DNA of 52,605 nucleotides from Mizugakiibacter sp. (GTDB lineage Bacteria > Pseudomonadota > Gammaproteobacteria > Xanthomonadales > Rhodanobacteraceae): positions 1-52,605 of the forward strand of contig QILI01000108.1 in assembly GCA_003233305.1 (NCBI GenBank). Direction: 5' to 3'. How positions within the stretch are numbered: the stretch's first letter is position 1; every line of letters begins with the position of its first letter. A program made the position numbers and the translations under genes. Of this stretch, positions 1,433 through 38,814 are shown one piece after another. Below the pieces are notes generated by a model that was not told the DNA's origin, did no database searches, and worked only from the letters and a program-made list of their open reading frames with translations.

Positions 1433-1798
1433 ATGACCTGCATCGCAATCAAGCGGATTTATGAAGTCCCGAATGCTAACGATGGCTGTAGGGTACTGGT
1501 AGACCGGTTGTGGCCACGGGGCTTGCGGAAAGATCAGGCGGAGATTGATCACTGGTTCAAGGGCCTCGCCCCCAGCGATGCACTGCGTAAGTGGTTTGGC
1601 CACGAACCGGAAAAATGGGATGAATTCCGCCTGCGTTACTGTGCTGAACTTGAGGCCAATACGGCCGCACTGGTGCCGCTTCGCACCCTGTTACAGTTAG
1701 AAGCCAAAGTCACCCTGCTGTTTGCGGCCAAAGACGAGGCCCACAACAACGCTGTAGCGCTGGCTGCCTACCTGCAAGTGAAACCACAACACTATTGA
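1433..1798 (+). CDS. DUF488 (YeaO-like) family protein
   Basis: A 121-residue protein whose biochemical role is unknown. The family signature is clear: an N-terminal IKRIYEVPNANDG, then VLVDRLWPRGLRKD, a central LRKWFGHEPEKWDEFRLRY, and the late VTLLFAAKDEAHNNAVAL. The open frame extends upstream to 1364, but the ATG at 1433 is preferred. It has GGAG at 1420-1423 nine bases upstream, and the family normally begins just before the IKR motif. It lies right after the norB terminator, so it probably has its own promoter. DUF488 genes often sit near stress or respiratory genes, but I infer no function from that. Confidence 0.85.
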   Translation: MTCIAIKRIYEVPNANDGCRVLVDRLWPRGLRKDQAEIDHWFKGLAPSDALRKWFGHEPEKWDEFRLRYCAELEANTAALVPLRTLLQLEAKVTLLFAAKDEAHNNAVALAAYLQVKPQHY

Positions 1799-1996
1799 GA
1801 CGGCACTCATTATCGATGCATCAACCTACTTGACGTATGGATCGCCGCAGGGGGTTTGGATACATCCGGTTTACTTCCTGCACCTGCGCGCACAGGGGAA
1901 TGACAAGCATGCAGCTTGCCGGCTCGTCCATGCTGTGGTGGTTCGTGGTGCGGGGCTTGGCGAACCACAACGTGGCGGGGGAGATCCTTAAAAGGT

Positions 1997-4994: not shown

Positions 4995-5026
4995 GACACG
5001 TCACTCCCGTCACTAGAAATCCACCG

Positions 5027-30141: not shown

Positions 30142-31221
30142 TCAACGTGATGCTGAAGACTGGCCCGGTATAGTAATGCCAACCGTAACTGGGGCTGGTG
30201 ATGCTCCCTCCAAGTGCTTGCCTAGCGTACCCGACAGGCCGTGCACCGGAGTACTTGGCACATTCACCGTTTTTACCCCCCCGGGAACTTTTTGAGAAAT
30301 GGGTGTGGTGGGAGCGTCCAGTCCGGACTGGCGTTCGAGAATTTGCTTCATGGTCCGGTTATTGAGAACAATGATACTAATACGCCGGTTATCAGCATCC
30401 CGGGGATTTTTCGGGTCAAACAAGATGGTATCGCCATAACCGACGACCCGCATGACCTTACGTGGGTTTAAACTGCCGGCCAGTAGAGCTCGGCGTGCCG
30501 AATTGGCCCGATCTGCCGAAAGTTCCCAGTTGCTGAACTTCGCACCTTTCACATACGGCGTTTCATCGGTATGGCCATTGATGCTGATACGGTTGGGGAC
30601 GGTATTGATAATCTTGGCAAGCTCGTGAAGGATGGTCTTGGTATAAGGCATCAGGGTAGAACTACCTAGAGCAAACATGGGTCGGTTCTTGTTATCGACG
30701 ATCTGGATTCTTAAGCCTTCGGGGGTAATGTCCAACAACAACTGTTTTTTGAAGCTCTTCAGAAATGGGCTCTTGTCGATAGCCTGTTTGAGTTGCTTCA
30801 GGAGCTTTTCCAGGCGTTTCTTCTCAGCCGCCTTAGAAATATTTTCCGCGGTTTTTACATTCACGTTTGTTGATTTGCGCTGCAACATCCGGTCACCGGG
30901 ACCATGTGGCAGGGTGCTGGTGCCCCCTAATTTGATCATCGAATCGCTGGCCCCTCCCGGGCCGTTAATACCCGGTGAAGGCACTGCCGAGGCACCCGCT
31001 ACCATGCTGGGATTCTTGAAGTATTGTGAGATCGCTGCACGCTGTTCCTTGCTGCCCGCACCCACCAGCCACATCACCAGAAAAAACGCCATCATCGAGG
31101 TTACAAAATCAGCATAGGCAACTTTCCAGGCCCCCCCATGACTATCATGCGCCGCCTTGCGAACCTTGCGGATAACAATGATCGGCGCTGGACCTTTCTC
31201 GTCGTCGCTTTTCTTGTCCAT
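30142..31221 (-). CDS. motB: Flagellar stator protein MotB
   Basis: Peptidoglycan-anchored part of the flagellar stator. After a short cytoplasmic N-terminus the single span VAYADFVTSMMAFFLVMWL carries D38, the proton-path aspartate. A plug and linker region follows, and an OmpA-like domain (SINGHTDETPYV, NWELSADRANSARRALL, NRRISIIVLNNRT) binds peptidoglycan. A proline- and glycine-rich tail of about 60 residues ends the 359-residue protein. Its start overlaps the motA stop by one base (TGATG), so the two are translated together. No other flagellar genes lie in the window. Confidence 0.95.
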   Translation of the reverse strand: MDKKSDDEKGPAPIIVIRKVRKAAHDSHGGAWKVAYADFVTSMMAFFLVMWLVGAGSKEQRAAISQYFKNPSMVAGASAVPSPGINGPGGASDSMIKLGGTSTLPHGPGDRMLQRKSTNVNVKTAENISKAAEKKRLEKLLKQLKQAIDKSPFLKSFKKQLLLDITPEGLRIQIVDNKNRPMFALGSSTLMPYTKTILHELAKIINTVPNRISINGHTDETPYVKGAKFSNWELSADRANSARRALLAGSLNPRKVMRVVGYGDTILFDPKNPRDADNRRISIIVLNNRTMKQILERQSGLDAPTTPISQKVPGGVKTVNVPSTPVHGLSGTLGKHLEGASPAPVTVGITIPGQSSASR

Positions 31222-32087
31222 CAGCGCTGCTCTTTAAGATGAGCCTCAAGATCCGAAAAACTAGGACGTACTTTGACGGCCAGAGACTTGCGCGCAAACT
31301 CAATGGCAACCTGGGGGTTGTAACCGCGCAGGCTCGCCACCAGCGCGATCTTGGTCGCCTCAAACGGCTTGCTATCGTCGTTGGCACGGTATTCAAGTGC
31401 TGCGGAGAGTGGACCCACCAGACCGTAGGCAAGCAGGATGCCAAGAAAGGTTCCAACCAGAGCCGCGGCAACGTGACCACCAATAGTCGCTACGTCACCA
31501 GAACCGATGGAGCTCATCGTTGTTACGATACCCAGGACCGCCGCCACGATACCGAAACCAGGTAAGGCATCCGCCATCTTCTGCAACGCCACCGCAGGAG
31601 CCATGCCATCAGAATGATGAGACTCCAGCTCGGTATCCAATAATTGTTCGAGCTCCATAGGGTTCATGCCGCCACCCACCATCAAGCGCAAACAATCGGT
31701 CATGAAATCAATCAGGTGATGTTCTTTCATCAACCTTGGATAAGCCATAAAGAGGGGACTTTCCTTTGGGTTGTCGACGTGTTCCTCCAGACTCATCAGG
31801 CCCTCTTTGCGAACCTTGATAAGCAGGTCAAACAAAAGTGACAGAAGATCGACATAGTCTTGGCGCTTGTATTGCGGACCACGCATTAAAGCGGAAACCC
31901 CCTTCAACGCCGCACCGACCACAGCTGGAGGATTACTGGTGACAAAAGCACCCACCGAGGCCCCGCCAATAATCAGTAATTCGGTAGGCTGCCATAAGGC
32001 CGCGAGTTGCCCATGATCCATTACATAGCCACCCACGACACTGCCAAAAACAATGACCACGCCAATGATCAGAAGCATGGAACCCAA
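31221..32087 (-). CDS. motA: Flagellar stator protein MotA
   Basis: Proton-channel subunit of the stator, 288 residues, with four membrane spans. It starts MGSMLLIIGVVIVFGSVVGGYVMDHG. The cytoplasmic loop between spans two and three is rich in charged residues (LIKVRKEGLMSLEEHVDN), as needed for contact with FliG. The region LPGFGIVAAVLGIVTTMSSIG holds the conserved proline and glycine of span three, and ALVGTFLGILLAYGLVGPLSAALEYR is span four. It is the first gene of the pair with motB. The 163 bases between it and the DUF493 gene contain no clear promoter that I can single out. The cell is therefore likely motile, in line with the chemoreceptor at 43.3 kb. Confidence 0.95.
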   Translation of the reverse strand: MGSMLLIIGVVIVFGSVVGGYVMDHGQLAALWQPTELLIIGGASVGAFVTSNPPAVVGAALKGVSALMRGPQYKRQDYVDLLSLLFDLLIKVRKEGLMSLEEHVDNPKESPLFMAYPRLMKEHHLIDFMTDCLRLMVGGGMNPMELEQLLDTELESHHSDGMAPAVALQKMADALPGFGIVAAVLGIVTTMSSIGSGDVATIGGHVAAALVGTFLGILLAYGLVGPLSAALEYRANDDSKPFEATKIALVASLRGYNPQVAIEFARKSLAVKVRPSFSDLEAHLKEQR

Positions 32088-32250: not shown

Positions 32251-32565
32251 CTAGAGGGTGTAACGGATTTCCGGATCAGCGCGCAACACTTGATGAGCAC
32301 GTTCATATTCTGCCCTGGTCCGGGCCAGGAAACGCAGCTTCACTGCTACAAAATTGCCCTTTTTTGAAGGTCGTACCACAACGCTATCTGCTACCAGCTG
32401 CACTCCGGCCTCTTGGGCAAGCAATGCCGGTACCCGTGCTTCCAGTCCAATACCAACTGCACCCATGGCGGTGATCTCGAACTTGCCGGGAAACTGCAAC
32501 CCCTGCGGGTCAACAGATGCCGTCCGCCTGCTGCGCCGTAGCGGGCCATTGCCATGAGTCTTCAT
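32251..32565 (-). CDS. DUF493/YbeD-family protein
   Basis: A 104-residue protein of the YbeD (DUF493) family, a small ferredoxin-like fold often found between dacA and lipB. Marks are LQFPGKFEITAMGAVG near the start and FVAVKLRFLARTRAEYERAHQVLRADPEIRYTL at the end. The ATG at 32565 overlaps the dacA stop as ATGA. The upstream extension is not supported. It is the last gene of the elongation operon. In most relatives lipB and lipA would follow; here they do not, and the next gene is motA. YbeD has been linked to lipoate metabolism, but its action is unclear. Confidence 0.88.
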   Translation of the reverse strand: MKTHGNGPLRRSRRTASVDPQGLQFPGKFEITAMGAVGIGLEARVPALLAQEAGVQLVADSVVVRPSKKGNFVAVKLRFLARTRAEYERAHQVLRADPEIRYTL

Positions 32566-33794
32566 GGGGTGTGCTCTGACTTGGCCGGCCCGTCGCCACG
32601 CCGCCAAAGTCGCACACTGTCCAGCAGACGACCCAGGATTCCCGCCTCTGATACGTCCTGCAGGGCCACCAAGGGTACCTGTCTCAGGACCTTGCCAGCA
32701 AGGCGGACCTGGAGTTCACCCAGCTTTTGCCCCTTGTGAAACGGTGCAATCAGCGTTGCCGGGATATCCACGCTGACCCGCAGATCGCGATAGCGACCCC
32801 GCGGCACGCTGACCTGTAAGGTGCTGGCCACCCCCATGGCAAGATGCTTGACGGTACCTTTCCATACCCGTGGACTGAACAGAGTCTGATCAGCCCCATA
32901 CAAGGTATGGGTGTTGAAAAAGTGGAATCCATAATTCAGTAGGGCTGTGGCCTCCTCGGCACGGGCGCTTTCGCTGGCCGCACCCAGCACCACGGCAATC
33001 CTTCGCTGACCACTCCGTTGCGCGGACGCCACCAGGCAATAATCCTCCGTACCAGTCTGCCCGGTCTGTAAGCCATCCACCGACGGGTCGCTCCACAACA
33101 AGCGATTGCGGCTGCGTTGCACCATTCCGTTCCAGGTAAATGTCCTGAGCTTGAAGGTTGAGTATTCCTGCGGAAAATTGTAGATCAAAGCGCGACTCAG
33201 CAAAGCCGTATCGTAAGCACTGGAATATTGACCGGACTGCGGATCACCGCTGGCATTTTCATAATGTGTATCGCGCATACCGAGCCGCTTGGCATAGGCA
33301 TTCATCAGCACCACAAAACCCTTTTCCGAACCCGCGACGTGCTTAGCCAGCGCGATTGCGGCATGGTTACCGGGCACGATGAGCAGTCCGCGCAACAGAG
33401 TTTGTAGCGGAACGGTGCTGCCGGGCTTAAACAAGCGGGCCGTAGCCGTGCCATCAGGCTGCCGGGCAGACTGGCTAATTATTACTGGATCGTTGCGATG
33501 AACCTTGCCTGCCGCCAGTTCTGCAAACACGACATAGGAGGTCATCAATTTGGCCAGTGCCGCCGGTGGTCTGCGTGAGTGGGCAGCGTGCTGGGCCAGC
33601 ACCTGGCCTGTCACGGCATCCATCAATAACCATGCCTGGGCCTTGATCTGCGGGGCATACAACTCTGGCAAGGCCGGTTTTACCGGGCCTGAGCGTGAAG
33701 CCAGTGGCGGTCTTGCAGCCAGTCCGAGCATCGGCAGCAACACGACCAGTGCGGTCAGTACGGGAATCAAACGCCATTTTATCGGATGCAACAT
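32562..33794 (-). CDS. dacA: DacA/PBP5-like protein without catalytic residues
   Basis: It has the fold of a D-alanyl-D-alanine carboxypeptidase but probably not the activity. After a signal peptide (1-27), the domain reads PELYAPQIKAQAWLLMDAVTGQVL as in PBP5. All three active-site motifs are changed: SxxK reads A79-L-A-K82 (nucleophile Ser to Ala), SGN reads P141-G-N143, and KTG reads Q243-T-G245. I rechecked each codon on the nucleotide sequence. The C-terminal PBP5 domain and an amphipathic anchor-like end (LGRLLDSVRLWRRGDG) are kept. It lies 7 bases after rlpA and overlaps the DUF493 gene. It may serve as a binding or scaffold protein, with true carboxypeptidase activity encoded elsewhere. 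The start ATG at 33794 has GAAGG upstream. Confidence 0.9.
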   Translation of the reverse strand: MLHPIKWRLIPVLTALVVLLPMLGLAARPPLASRSGPVKPALPELYAPQIKAQAWLLMDAVTGQVLAQHAAHSRRPPAALAKLMTSYVVFAELAAGKVHRNDPVIISQSARQPDGTATARLFKPGSTVPLQTLLRGLLIVPGNHAAIALAKHVAGSEKGFVVLMNAYAKRLGMRDTHYENASGDPQSGQYSSAYDTALLSRALIYNFPQEYSTFKLRTFTWNGMVQRSRNRLLWSDPSVDGLQTGQTGTEDYCLVASAQRSGQRRIAVVLGAASESARAEEATALLNYGFHFFNTHTLYGADQTLFSPRVWKGTVKHLAMGVASTLQVSVPRGRYRDLRVSVDIPATLIAPFHKGQKLGELQVRLAGKVLRQVPLVALQDVSEAGILGRLLDSVRLWRRGDGPAKSEHTP

Positions 33795-33801
33795 GGAGCC
33801 T

Positions 33802-34629
33802 TCAGGAACCGGAAAGAATTTGTGCGGAATACAAGCCCAGCGCATGCACCCGGGCCAGCACGCGGCGAGCCGTGACGACATTGGGCAATGGCCCAAGACG
33901 CACCCGATAGAAACGCTGGCCGCGCACCATAACCGAATCGATGTTCACGTTCTGCAAACCGGCCCGATCAAGGCGATCATGCAGACGCTCGGCGTTGTCC
34001 CAATCTGCGAAGGAGCCAAGCTGCACATACATCGGCCCCTGTTGTACATGGCTTGCAGGAGTGCCCCCGGCAAGATCGCTGCGCCAGTTCGGATCATTGG
34101 GATCGATACCCTGGACCTCGACCCGACCGGTGCCGTGCTGCCAGATACCGATGCGTAACGCCGCCACATATGACAAATCGATGATCCGGCCCGACACAAA
34201 CGGGCCTCGATCATTGATGCGTACCACCACACTCTTACCATTGGCCAGATTGGTCACCAAGGCAAAACTCGGCAAGGGCAGTACCTTGCTGGCTGCGGTG
34301 TACTTGTACATGTCATAGCGTTCCAGGGATGACGTCAGATGACCCTGAAACTTGGTGCCATACCAGGAAGCGATACCCCGCTGTACATAGCCGCGAGCCG
34401 TCCTGAGAACATAATAGGTTCGCCCATTGACGGTATATGAAGATTTGTTGCCATAGCGGGAACGGGGCTCCGGCCTGGGTACCGGCTCGGGTATGTTGTA
34501 CACATTGGGGATCGAACCCGTGGGTGCCGCATCGTTTTCCTGCGAGTAACGCCCGGCGTTGGCCCGCTGCGGACTGGAAGCACAGCCCGCAAGCAAGGCC
34601 AGAGCGAGTATCGCCGCCAGCCACTTCAT
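33802..34629 (-). CDS. rlpA: RlpA-family septal lipoprotein with lost catalytic histidine
   Basis: An outer-membrane lipoprotein of 275 residues. The lipobox LLAGC gives lipidation at C16. A double-psi beta-barrel domain (about 82-170, GIASWYGTKFQGH to GRIIDLSYVAA) and a C-terminal SPOR domain (about 200-272, YVQLGSFADWDNA) follow. Pseudomonas RlpA is a lytic transglycosylase for denuded glycan and uses a Glu, a His and an Asp 11 and 26 residues apart. Here E103 and D140 are kept, but the His position is S114 (TAASKVLP instead of TAAHKTLP). Cleavage is therefore doubtful, while SPOR binding to denuded glycan should persist. It overlaps mltB by four bases and precedes dacA by seven. Confidence 0.93.
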   Translation of the reverse strand: MKWLAAILALALLAGCASSPQRANAGRYSQENDAAPTGSIPNVYNIPEPVPRPEPRSRYGNKSSYTVNGRTYYVLRTARGYVQRGIASWYGTKFQGHLTSSLERYDMYKYTAASKVLPLPSFALVTNLANGKSVVVRINDRGPFVSGRIIDLSYVAALRIGIWQHGTGRVEVQGIDPNDPNWRSDLAGGTPASHVQQGPMYVQLGSFADWDNAERLHDRLDRAGLQNVNIDSVMVRGQRFYRVRLGPLPNVVTARRVLARVHALGLYSAQILSGS

Positions 34630-35764: not shown

Positions 35765-36874
35765 TCAGCTTGGCATCAATTTGCGATGCGCATGAATAGA
35801 CATAAGAATACCAAAGCCGATAAGTAACGTGACCGCCGAAGTGCCCCCATAACTTACCAGTGGCAGGGGTACGCCCACCACTGGCAGTAGCCCTGAAATC
35901 ATGCCCCCATTGACCAGTACGTAGATAAAGAAACTCATCGCCAAAGCCCCACCCAATAATCGGGCATAGGTATCGTGACCGTGCACCGCGATCCACAGGC
36001 TACGCCAAATGATGAAGCCGTACAGGGTCAATAGTATCAGCACGCCCAGCAGACCGAATTCCTCACCCACCACCGCAAAAATGAAATCGGTCGTGTGTTC
36101 GGGAAGAAACTCCAGTTGGGATTGTGTGCCCTTGAGAAAACCCTTACCGAGTACCCCGCCGGAACCTACTGCGATTTCTGATTGCATGATGTGCCAACCG
36201 CTACCCAGTGGATCGGACTCCGGATTCAGCATGGTCTGCACGCGCTGACGCTGGTAAGCGTGCATGGAATGCCAGGCTACCGGAGCCGCCACCATCAGTA
36301 TCAGCAGCAGCAAGCCAATACGTTTCCAGGACACCCCGGAGAGAAAGATCACGAAGCCCCCCGATACCGCCACCAGTACCGCCGTACCCAAATCCGGTTG
36401 CTTGGCGATCAGCGCAGCCGGCACGGCTATAAGTACGCCTGCTATACCCAGATCGCGCCAGCTGGGAGGAAGCGGCCTGGCGGCCAGGAACCAGGCCAAC
36501 ATCATCGGTGTGGTCAACTTGAGCAGCTCAGAAGGCTGGAAGCGGATGATCCCCAGGTCCAACCACCGTGATGCTCCACGGCCCTCACCCAGGATCAACA
36601 CTAGAACCACCAACATGGTGCTGGCCGCATACAGCCACGGGGTCCATAACTTCAGACGAGCCGGGGAAATATGTGACACCACCCACAGCAAGGCAAAACC
36701 CAGGGCAAAGCGGCTGGCCTGGGCCATCACCACATGCCGATTCAGATTGGACGCACTGCCAAGTATAAATAAACCGGCCCCAGCCAGTAGCAACAAACCG
36801 ATCATCAATAACGGATCGAGCCACGTTGAGGCCTGCAGTTTCAACAGAGGGCGCAGCTGCACCTGAATTTTCAC
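35765..36874 (-). CDS. rodA: Rod-shape SEDS glycosyltransferase RodA
   Basis: Peptidoglycan polymerase of the elongasome, partner of PBP2. A 369-residue membrane protein with ten spans; SEDS marks are WLDLGIIRFQPSELLK, GSGGVLGKGFLKGTQSQLEFLPEHTTDFIF and GVPLPLVSYGGTS. The Asp in the PEHTTDF loop corresponds to the essential residue of SEDS proteins. It overlaps mrdA by four bases (ATGA), so the two subunits of the polymerase complex are made together. Length is normal. Confidence 0.97.
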   Translation of the reverse strand: MKIQVQLRPLLKLQASTWLDPLLMIGLLLLAGAGLFILGSASNLNRHVVMAQASRFALGFALLWVVSHISPARLKLWTPWLYAASTMLVVLVLILGEGRGASRWLDLGIIRFQPSELLKLTTPMMLAWFLAARPLPPSWRDLGIAGVLIAVPAALIAKQPDLGTAVLVAVSGGFVIFLSGVSWKRIGLLLLILMVAAPVAWHSMHAYQRQRVQTMLNPESDPLGSGWHIMQSEIAVGSGGVLGKGFLKGTQSQLEFLPEHTTDFIFAVVGEEFGLLGVLILLTLYGFIIWRSLWIAVHGHDTYARLLGGALAMSFFIYVLVNGGMISGLLPVVGVPLPLVSYGGTSAVTLLIGFGILMSIHAHRKLMPS

Positions 36875-38814
36875 GGCACCCCTCCGGCGCTGGATTCAGC
36901 AGCTCGGCGAACCTGTGGCGGCCGGGCGGCCGGGGTCAGATAATCGCCGCGTAAAGTATGATCCGGTAGACCCCGCTGCTGGGCCCAGGCATCAAAAATC
37001 TTGCGGACAATCGGTGCGGCGTCCTGGCCACCCCAGGCCGCGCTACCCAAAATGGCTACCGCAGCAATTTGTGGATCATTCGCCGGGGTGAATCCCTCAA
37101 ACAAGGCCCGATGCAGTTTCGCCAATTCAGCTGTACTCAGATGGCCTTCCCAAGCGCGAGTAGTACGCGAATAACGTTCGGCAGTTCCCGTTTTACCCGC
37201 AATTTCAAAAGGAAATCCATCGCCCAGTCCACGTGCCGTACCGCGCTTCCCATACACCACCTTTTCCATACCCTGCACTACAACCTTCCAATCCTGATGC
37301 TTGGCGATCACCGGCTGACCTGCCGGCAATGTCGGAACCCGTCGAACCGGTGCGCCGGGTCCATTCTGCGTCGCCAGTAATAACCGTGGCGTATGCGGTA
37401 CACCTCGATCGGCCAGGATGGCCAGGGCATGGGTCAGCTGCAACGGCGTAATAACCCAGTATCCCTGACCAATGCCGGCAATCACCGTCTCACCCAGATA
37501 CCAGGGTTTGCCGAATCGGGCTCGCTTCCAGGCCGGGGACGGCAGTACCCCTCGCGCTTCCCCTTGTAGATCGATACCGGTGGCGCGACCAAACCCGAAT
37601 TTGGCCATAAAAGTATCCATGCGGGTAATACCCATATCCAGGGCCAGCTTGTAAAAATAGGTGTTCACCGACATCTCGATGGCCTGCACCAGATCCACCC
37701 GACCAAATCCGCCACGCACGTCGTCACGATAACCCCGCGAGTGCCCTGGAATGTAAAACTCACCGGTTGAGAGCACCGTATCCTGGGGGGTGCGTACGCC
37801 AAGTTCCAGCCCGGCCACGGCCAGATACGGCTTGATCGTTGAACCCGGTGGATACATACCGCGCAGAGCCCGATCCAGCAGCGGCCAATGGGGATTTTCC
37901 AGTAAACTCCGGTAATCGGCCTCACTGATCCCACCCACAAACAGATTCGGATCAAAACTGGGCGAACTGACCATCGCCAGCACTTGGCCATTGCGTGGAT
38001 CGATTGCCACCGCTGCACCGTCACGACCCGCCAAGCCGGTGTAGGCCGCCTGCTGCAGCCCTACATCCAGACTCAGGTACAGATTCTGGCCGGGCTTGGG
38101 TGGAATACGCTGCAATATATGCACCGGTCGCCCATCGGCATCGACCTCGACCAGTTCATAGCCGGGCTGACCACGCAAGCGATCTTCGTAATAGCGTTCG
38201 ATGCCGGTCTTGCCGATCTGGTCCAGTTCGGCATAGGGCGTATCCCGTAAACGGGCCGCCTCACGCTGGTTGACACGCCCGACATATCCGACCACATGCG
38301 CAAACAGCGCACCATACGGGTAATAACGCCGCAAGTAGGGCTGCACCTCCACTCCCGGAAAACGCCAGCGATTGATTGCAAATCGGGCAATTTCGTCCTG
38401 GTTCAGACGCATCCGCAAGGGCACCGGCTGAAAAGGACGGTGTTCTTTCAATCCCTGTTTGAAGCGCCGCAGGTCATCCCTCGACCAAGGCACCACCTGC
38501 TTTAGGCGCGTCAGCATGGCCTGCATGTGCGGCACCCTATCCGGGATGACTACCAAGCGAAACGCAGGCTGATTTTCCGCTAACACCACACCGTGACGAT
38601 CAAGAATCATCCCCCGCGGCGGCACCAAATAGCGCACATGAATGCTGTTTTGATTAGAGCGAGTGACGTATTCCTGATGCTTGACCACCTGCAACCAGAA
38701 AAAACGTGCCGACAATCCACCCAGTCCCAACATGACCACGGCCAGGCCGATCCATGCCCGGCGCGCAAACTGAGCGCGCTCACGGCGTGGGTCCTTGACC
38801 GTCTTGGAATTCAT
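36871..38814 (-). CDS. mrdA: Penicillin-binding protein 2 (elongation transpeptidase)
   Basis: Cross-links peptidoglycan during cell elongation together with RodA. The 647-residue class B PBP has one N-terminal span (about 22-44), a pedestal domain (60-240), and an intact transpeptidase domain: S325-T-I-K328 in YPPGSTIKPY, S382-V-N384, and K541-T-G543 in IAGKTGTAERY. All motifs are as expected, in contrast to the DacA-like protein in the same operon. It overlaps mreD upstream and rodA downstream by four bases each. Confidence 0.97.
   Translation of the reverse strand: MNSKTVKDPRRERAQFARRAWIGLAVVMLGLGGLSARFFWLQVVKHQEYVTRSNQNSIHVRYLVPPRGMILDRHGVVLAENQPAFRLVVIPDRVPHMQAMLTRLKQVVPWSRDDLRRFKQGLKEHRPFQPVPLRMRLNQDEIARFAINRWRFPGVEVQPYLRRYYPYGALFAHVVGYVGRVNQREAARLRDTPYAELDQIGKTGIERYYEDRLRGQPGYELVEVDADGRPVHILQRIPPKPGQNLYLSLDVGLQQAAYTGLAGRDGAAVAIDPRNGQVLAMVSSPSFDPNLFVGGISEADYRSLLENPHWPLLDRALRGMYPPGSTIKPYLAVAGLELGVRTPQDTVLSTGEFYIPGHSRGYRDDVRGGFGRVDLVQAIEMSVNTYFYKLALDMGITRMDTFMAKFGFGRATGIDLQGEARGVLPSPAWKRARFGKPWYLGETVIAGIGQGYWVITPLQLTHALAILADRGVPHTPRLLLATQNGPGAPVRRVPTLPAGQPVIAKHQDWKVVVQGMEKVVYGKRGTARGLGDGFPFEIAGKTGTAERYSRTTRAWEGHLSTAELAKLHRALFEGFTPANDPQIAAVAILGSAAWGGQDAAPIVRKIFDAWAQQRGLPDHTLRGDYLTPAARPPQVRRAAESSAGGVP

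Follow-up and report, generated by a model that had tools for sequence, protein, structure and literature searches.

PBP5-type carboxypeptidases have been studied mainly as enzymes, and the question raised by the locus described here is whether a DacA-type protein that lacks its catalytic residues is kept for something other than catalysis or is on its way to being lost. The locus lies in a stretch of 52,605 nucleotides from Mizugakiibacter sp. (assembly GCA_003233305.1, contig QILI01000108.1, positions 1 to 52,605), hereafter the window. If the first answer is true, a natural DacA without a working active site, kept beside the elongation genes with a canonical copy at another place in the genome, would allow what DacA does structurally to be told apart from what it does as an enzyme, a distinction which, in the accessible part of one report, is approached through laboratory mutants such as PBP5(S44G) (PMC4916385).

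Motif losses in a resident operon gene

The dacA-type gene, defined by its open reading frame, translation, Pfam matches and alignment, occupies 32562..33794 on the minus strand and encodes a PBP5 homolog of 410 amino acids without catalytic residues. The translated frame runs unbroken from the ATG at 33794 to the TGA at 32562; the gene is thus not a pseudogene by frame disruption, and a decayed frame in the window was rejected. All features of the window given below with coordinates are on the minus strand, except where only a region is named. The product contains a Peptidase_S11 domain (residues 47-273, 32976..33656, 228.8 bits) and a PBP5_C domain (residues 293-382, 32649..32918, 63.9 bits), both over the Pfam cut-off, followed by a tail (residues 383-410, 32565..32648) that can be aligned to the C-terminal end of canonical DacA and is a putative membrane anchor. 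In the alignment, A79-L-A-K82, with alanine at the nucleophile position (codon GCA), replaces SxxK at 33549..33560, P141-G-N143 (P141 codon CCC) replaces SGN at 33366..33374, and Q243-T-G245 (Q243 codon CAG) replaces KTG at 33060..33068. The initial annotation, made from the letters of the window, had reported these three changes in an intact frame together with a retained C-terminal domain, and on both points translation, alignment and the PBP5_C match agree with it.

Canonical motifs are the rule among relatives. All three were found in the best DacA match of each of the 58 other genomes compared, of which 11 belong to the genus, 46 to the rest of the family and 1 to another family of the order, and, in further sets, in 19 of 19 loci of the class and 29 of 31 loci of the order and outgroup, these loci being best-scoring matches and not a random sample. 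The two departures among the 31 are each single: in L034 the second motif reads SAN, and in L132 threonine stands for the serine of SxxK, with SGN and KTG intact. At the level of profiles, the window protein falls below the cut-off of all seven NCBIfam models that it matched, the best with 296.8 bits against 694 (DacA, PRK10793), and its nearest solved relatives, judged from sequence, belong to the D-alanyl-D-alanine carboxypeptidases of PBP5/PBP6 type. A fold model built from three sequences is itself modest (mean pLDDT 62, pTM 0.57); its closest structural fit, with 5tr7_B, concerns the catalytic domain and has an rmsd of 2.4 over 251 columns, full-length fits have an rmsd of 12-19, and the structures that it matches are PBP5-type.

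The extent of the change can be followed over 130 alignment columns at which 98% or more of the 58 other DacA agree. The window protein has changed 27 of them, including T81A, W111R, S120R, D144H, E151K and G251D, and keeps 103, against 91 kept by the canonical copy on contig C20 of the same genome (see below); K82, N143, T244, G245 and R229 are all in place. When the segments are picked after the losses have been seen, 15 of 30 columns around the active site are changed against 12 of 100 elsewhere, but with segments set by rule (motif ±4 residues, within residues 47-290) the counts are 7 of 22 and 15 of 78 (p 0.25), so that the concentration of losses at the three motifs is not significant and no weight is placed on it.

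The gene stands in a run of lookalikes of mreB, mreC, mreD, mrdA, rodA, mltB, rlpA and ybeD, names which we assign from resemblance. The dacA start follows 7 bp after the rlpA-like gene (33802..34629), whose stop is overlapped by a GAAGG stretch resembling a ribosome-binding site; on the other side, the ATG of the ybeD-like gene (32251..32565) overlaps the dacA stop (ATGA). The rodA-like (35765..36874) and mrdA (PBP2)-like (36871..38814) genes belong to the same run. The order mrdA, rodA, mltB, rlpA, dacA, ybeD recurs in all ten loci compared, which are all within the genus, and it matches the neighbours in the window, as the initial annotation had supposed in calling the operon place retained. 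In the tree, the window protein clusters with the eight genus DacA included (ultrafast bootstrap 100). Grouping and shared neighbours together indicate a resident gene, and its place between rlpA and ybeD and its position in the tree point to orthology with the operon DacA of the genus. A foreign origin was rejected; the GC3 of the gene is similar to that of its neighbours. Beyond ybeD, motB- and motA-like genes are found at 30142-32087 of the window, and the ten genus operon loci (about 15-16 kb each) have no match to motA, motB or trpS.

The sister genome and the second S11 protein

Among 13 genomes of the genus, a single one, here called G103, holds a relative of the window protein that is more than 55% identical (65%). 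This copy lies in the same place, after rlpA and followed by motA, but it is broken: about 137 residues are missing from its N-terminus, in-frame stops, frameshifts and an insertion are present, and most of ybeD is absent beside it. What can be read of it has proline at 141 (PGN) and glutamine at 243 (QIG). These two losses, shared by separately assembled genomes, are not assembly errors and are older than the split; the part that holds residue 79 is deleted in G103. The same triple change looked for in relatives is thus present in the sister as two of three, the third site being deleted, and in none of the 58 other genomes; two congeners carry a different triple loss in a second paralog. As the sister copy is a pseudogene, the role of the window gene would be dispensable or lineage-specific, and not needed in every member of the lineage.

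Several further observations concern the same sister assembly. Its contig seems chimeric near the start (L073:1-5020), where an ispB-like sequence passes over into mltB around base 5020; the region used here is nevertheless collinear with the window. Part of the insertion in its dacA (L073:7151-7250) resembles window positions 1789-1888 (100 bases, 87% identity) and is probably a dispersed repeat. G103 further contains a disrupted piece of another dacA of the C20 type (L088:591-902, 69% protein identity over 81 residues), so that the number of S11 copies is in flux in the lineage.

By profile matches, the window genome has two S11 proteins and one S13 protein. The second S11 protein (C20:33020-34123), here called DacA2, has SxxK, SGN and KTG all intact, so that the search for an active DacA elsewhere in the genome, which the initial annotation had proposed, yields a candidate with canonical motifs. 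A copy of this type is intact in G103, with canonical motifs, and is 93% identical to that of the window genome with dN/dS 0.094, and their synonymous divergence of 0.37 lies within the range of six other genes compared (0.19-0.56), which indicates that DacA2 belongs to the lineage and makes contamination unlikely. DacA2 is 46-49% identical to its 19 best matches in the class (by the search tool) and 42-45% identical to the operon DacA of the genus (by alignment), values which were measured differently and which give only a hint that it may have been acquired by transfer.

Constraint or decay after the split

The initial annotation had argued from three independent losses to selection for a non-catalytic role. 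This step does not hold as it stands, because loss of the nucleophile lets the remaining motifs drift, and three losses alone are no proof of selection. More informative is what has happened since the split from G103. The 244 codons shared by the two copies hold 59 amino-acid differences which, polarised against the 58 other sequences, fall 37 on the G103 branch and 10 on the window branch, with 6 ambiguous and 6 matching neither. For trpS, aceF, rlpA and the C20 copy, pooled as controls, the corresponding figures are 33 and 24 (Fisher p 0.035 for the contrast with the dacA-type gene), 44 of 101 control differences being ambiguous or unmatched and left out; rlpA alone is uneven, with 12 changes on the G103 branch and 5 on the window branch.

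In a codon model in which both branches have the same neutral time and the background dN/dS is fixed at 0.115, dN/dS on the window branch is 0.15, with w=1 rejected (2dL 27.1, p 2e-7) and no difference from background, while the G103 copy, at 0.78, does not differ from 1, and equality of the two branches is rejected (p 2e-4). The result withstands some inequality of the branches, as the window value is 0.19 at a time ratio of 1.5 and 0.13 at 0.67, with w=1 rejected at both. When branch times are left free, the window branch does not depart significantly from w=1 (2dL 0.69), since synonymous sites are saturated to the outgroup, and this version of the model does not discriminate between the hypotheses. 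The pairwise dN/dS between the window gene and the whole G103 copy is 0.47, from an alignment with a badly aligned segment in it. The other genes bear out a similar neutral time for the two branches only roughly, and purifying selection on the window gene after two of the three losses is likely if the neutral times of the branches are similar. The selection claimed by the initial annotation is therefore backed by constraint after the split, if equal times are granted, and set back by the pseudogene in the sister. On balance we lean slightly towards a selected DacA pseudoenzyme.

The main rival, to which we give limited credence, is that DacA2 made the resident DacA redundant, that its active site eroded and that the gene is drifting toward the fate seen in G103, its open frame marking a short lag or being held by translational coupling to ybeD. 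The broken sister copy with most of ybeD missing beside it, the overlap of the dacA stop with the ybeD start and the neutrality not rejected under free branch times all fit such a course, as does the continuing loss of residues on the window branch: D144H and E151K were acquired there after the split, so that erosion of the pocket is ongoing. The equal-time estimate for the window branch speaks against it, as does the contrast between several disabling changes in the G103 copy and none in the window copy; moreover, coupling would keep the frame and not the amino acids.

The reading as a selected pseudoenzyme also has in its favour a parallel within the genus. The genomes G071 and G101 each carry, besides a canonical operon DacA, a second S11 protein with a different triple loss, the motifs reading SGLVK, where glycine replaces the nucleophile, GGN and GVG. 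These proteins are encoded in open frames at C2:141296-142456 (L045) in G071 and at C171:11721-12854 (L046) in G101. These two copies are 81% identical, with a pairwise dN/dS of 0.26. Their synonymous divergence of 0.42 exceeds the 0.13 between the operon DacA of G071 and G101, which weakens the case that they descended together with their genomes. In the tree the C20 copy groups with them (bootstrap 58). Each of the nine other genomes of the genus has one S11 match, which is canonical, although several are 72-90% complete and second copies in them may be missed. An order-wide search for the G071/G101 type, drawn without these two genomes, gave matches in at least 287 of 299 genomes, and among the 29 loci examined from the best-scoring ones (33-38% identical) none was triple-dead.

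An open dead DacA accordingly stands beside a canonical one in 3 of 13 genus genomes, and in G103 a broken dead one does so. In the window genome it is the operon copy that is dead and the second that is live, in the sense of having canonical motifs, while in G071 and G101 the second is dead and the operon copy live. From this recurrent pairing it may be ventured, tentatively, that dead PBP5 homologs are no accidents but a class, arising repeatedly, of proteins that regulate or scaffold wall trimming without catalysis. The genus in any case offers a natural experiment, with a dead copy kept in the window genome, a dead copy lost in G103 and, in G071 and G101, a dead second copy of a different type.

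Possible role and known systems

The best explanation overall, which we hold to be about evenly balanced between right and wrong, is that the window gene encodes a DacA pseudoenzyme maintained for a task other than catalysis among the Rod-system proteins whose genes surround it, and dispensable in the sister. A more specific mechanism, the likeliest of its kind and in itself rather doubtful, can be put forward. The protein, with a fold unable to form the acyl-enzyme, would be exported and tethered to the membrane and would stand in for active DacA where the wall grows, taking up its sites or partners within the Rod machinery by way of PBP5_C, the anchor and its surface; DacA2 would do the D,D-carboxypeptidase work; and the window protein, by limiting or positioning this trimming, would leave more pentapeptide for PBP2. 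A working carboxypeptidase activity of the window protein itself is very unlikely by analogy with PBP5-type enzymes of A. baumannii, whose serine-to-alanine mutants are described as catalytically inactive in the available part of the source (PMC13059705). According to the accessible text of another study, expression of inactive PBP5(S44G) in E. coli alters morphology and worsens shape, inactive PBP6a(S66A) is without effect, and PBP6a seemed to shield pentapeptides from cleavage (PMC4916385). Going by the two mutants, dead PBP5-like proteins can, but need not, influence the cell.

An improbable alternative is that the pocket has been remodelled, so that the protein still binds stem peptides without acylation, as a sensor or decoy. 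The retained K82, N143, T244, G245 and R229 and the PBP5-like fold of the modest model would allow it. The SGN serine and the KTG lysine are substrate-contacting, and both are gone along with the serine of SxxK, with D144H, E151K and changes at 111-122 in addition; this loss of pocket residues makes a stem-peptide sensor, which the initial annotation had also suggested, the weaker option. An artefact of assembly, contamination or sequencing, for which the 172-contig assembly with 1.57% contamination and the chimeric-looking start of the G103 contig might be cited, was rejected as highly improbable, given canonical motifs in 58 of 58 others, P141 and Q243 in two separately assembled genomes, an operon place like that of relatives, GC3 like that of the neighbours and clustering of the gene with the genus.

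Among wall proteins, degenerate LytM factors such as EnvC and NlpD are non-catalytic, enzyme-like proteins that regulate active hydrolases. The window protein would resemble them as a non-catalytic enzyme-like wall protein, and differs in fold and pathway. Compared with DacA/PBP5 itself (4k91 from P. aeruginosa and 1nzo from E. coli, 38-44% identical), it has the same fold and domains, with an operon place as in its genus relatives, but it is without the catalytic serine and without the serine and lysine of the partner motifs. In the titles and abstract openings of the mostly non-subscription literature found, no natural triple-dead PBP5 is named. Dead homologues as a general class are documented, as the accessible part of a survey of prokaryotic inactive serine protease homologues counts 42 of them in five families and 91 genomes; its DD-peptidase family is PF00144 (S12), not S11 (PMC2605481). 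E. coli PBP6a (DacC) is an S11 PBP5-like protein which reportedly seemed not to act as a carboxypeptidase in the cell and apparently shielded pentapeptides (PMC4916385); PBP6, however, was solved as an ampicillin acyl-enzyme (title of 3ita), so that its serine can react, whereas the window protein has none. The engineered E. coli PBP5(S44G) likewise lacks the nucleophile and, by the same partial text, still affects cell shape when expressed (PMC4916385), but it is a laboratory mutant of the nucleophile only, its other motifs being presumably intact to judge from its name, and its effect is harmful.
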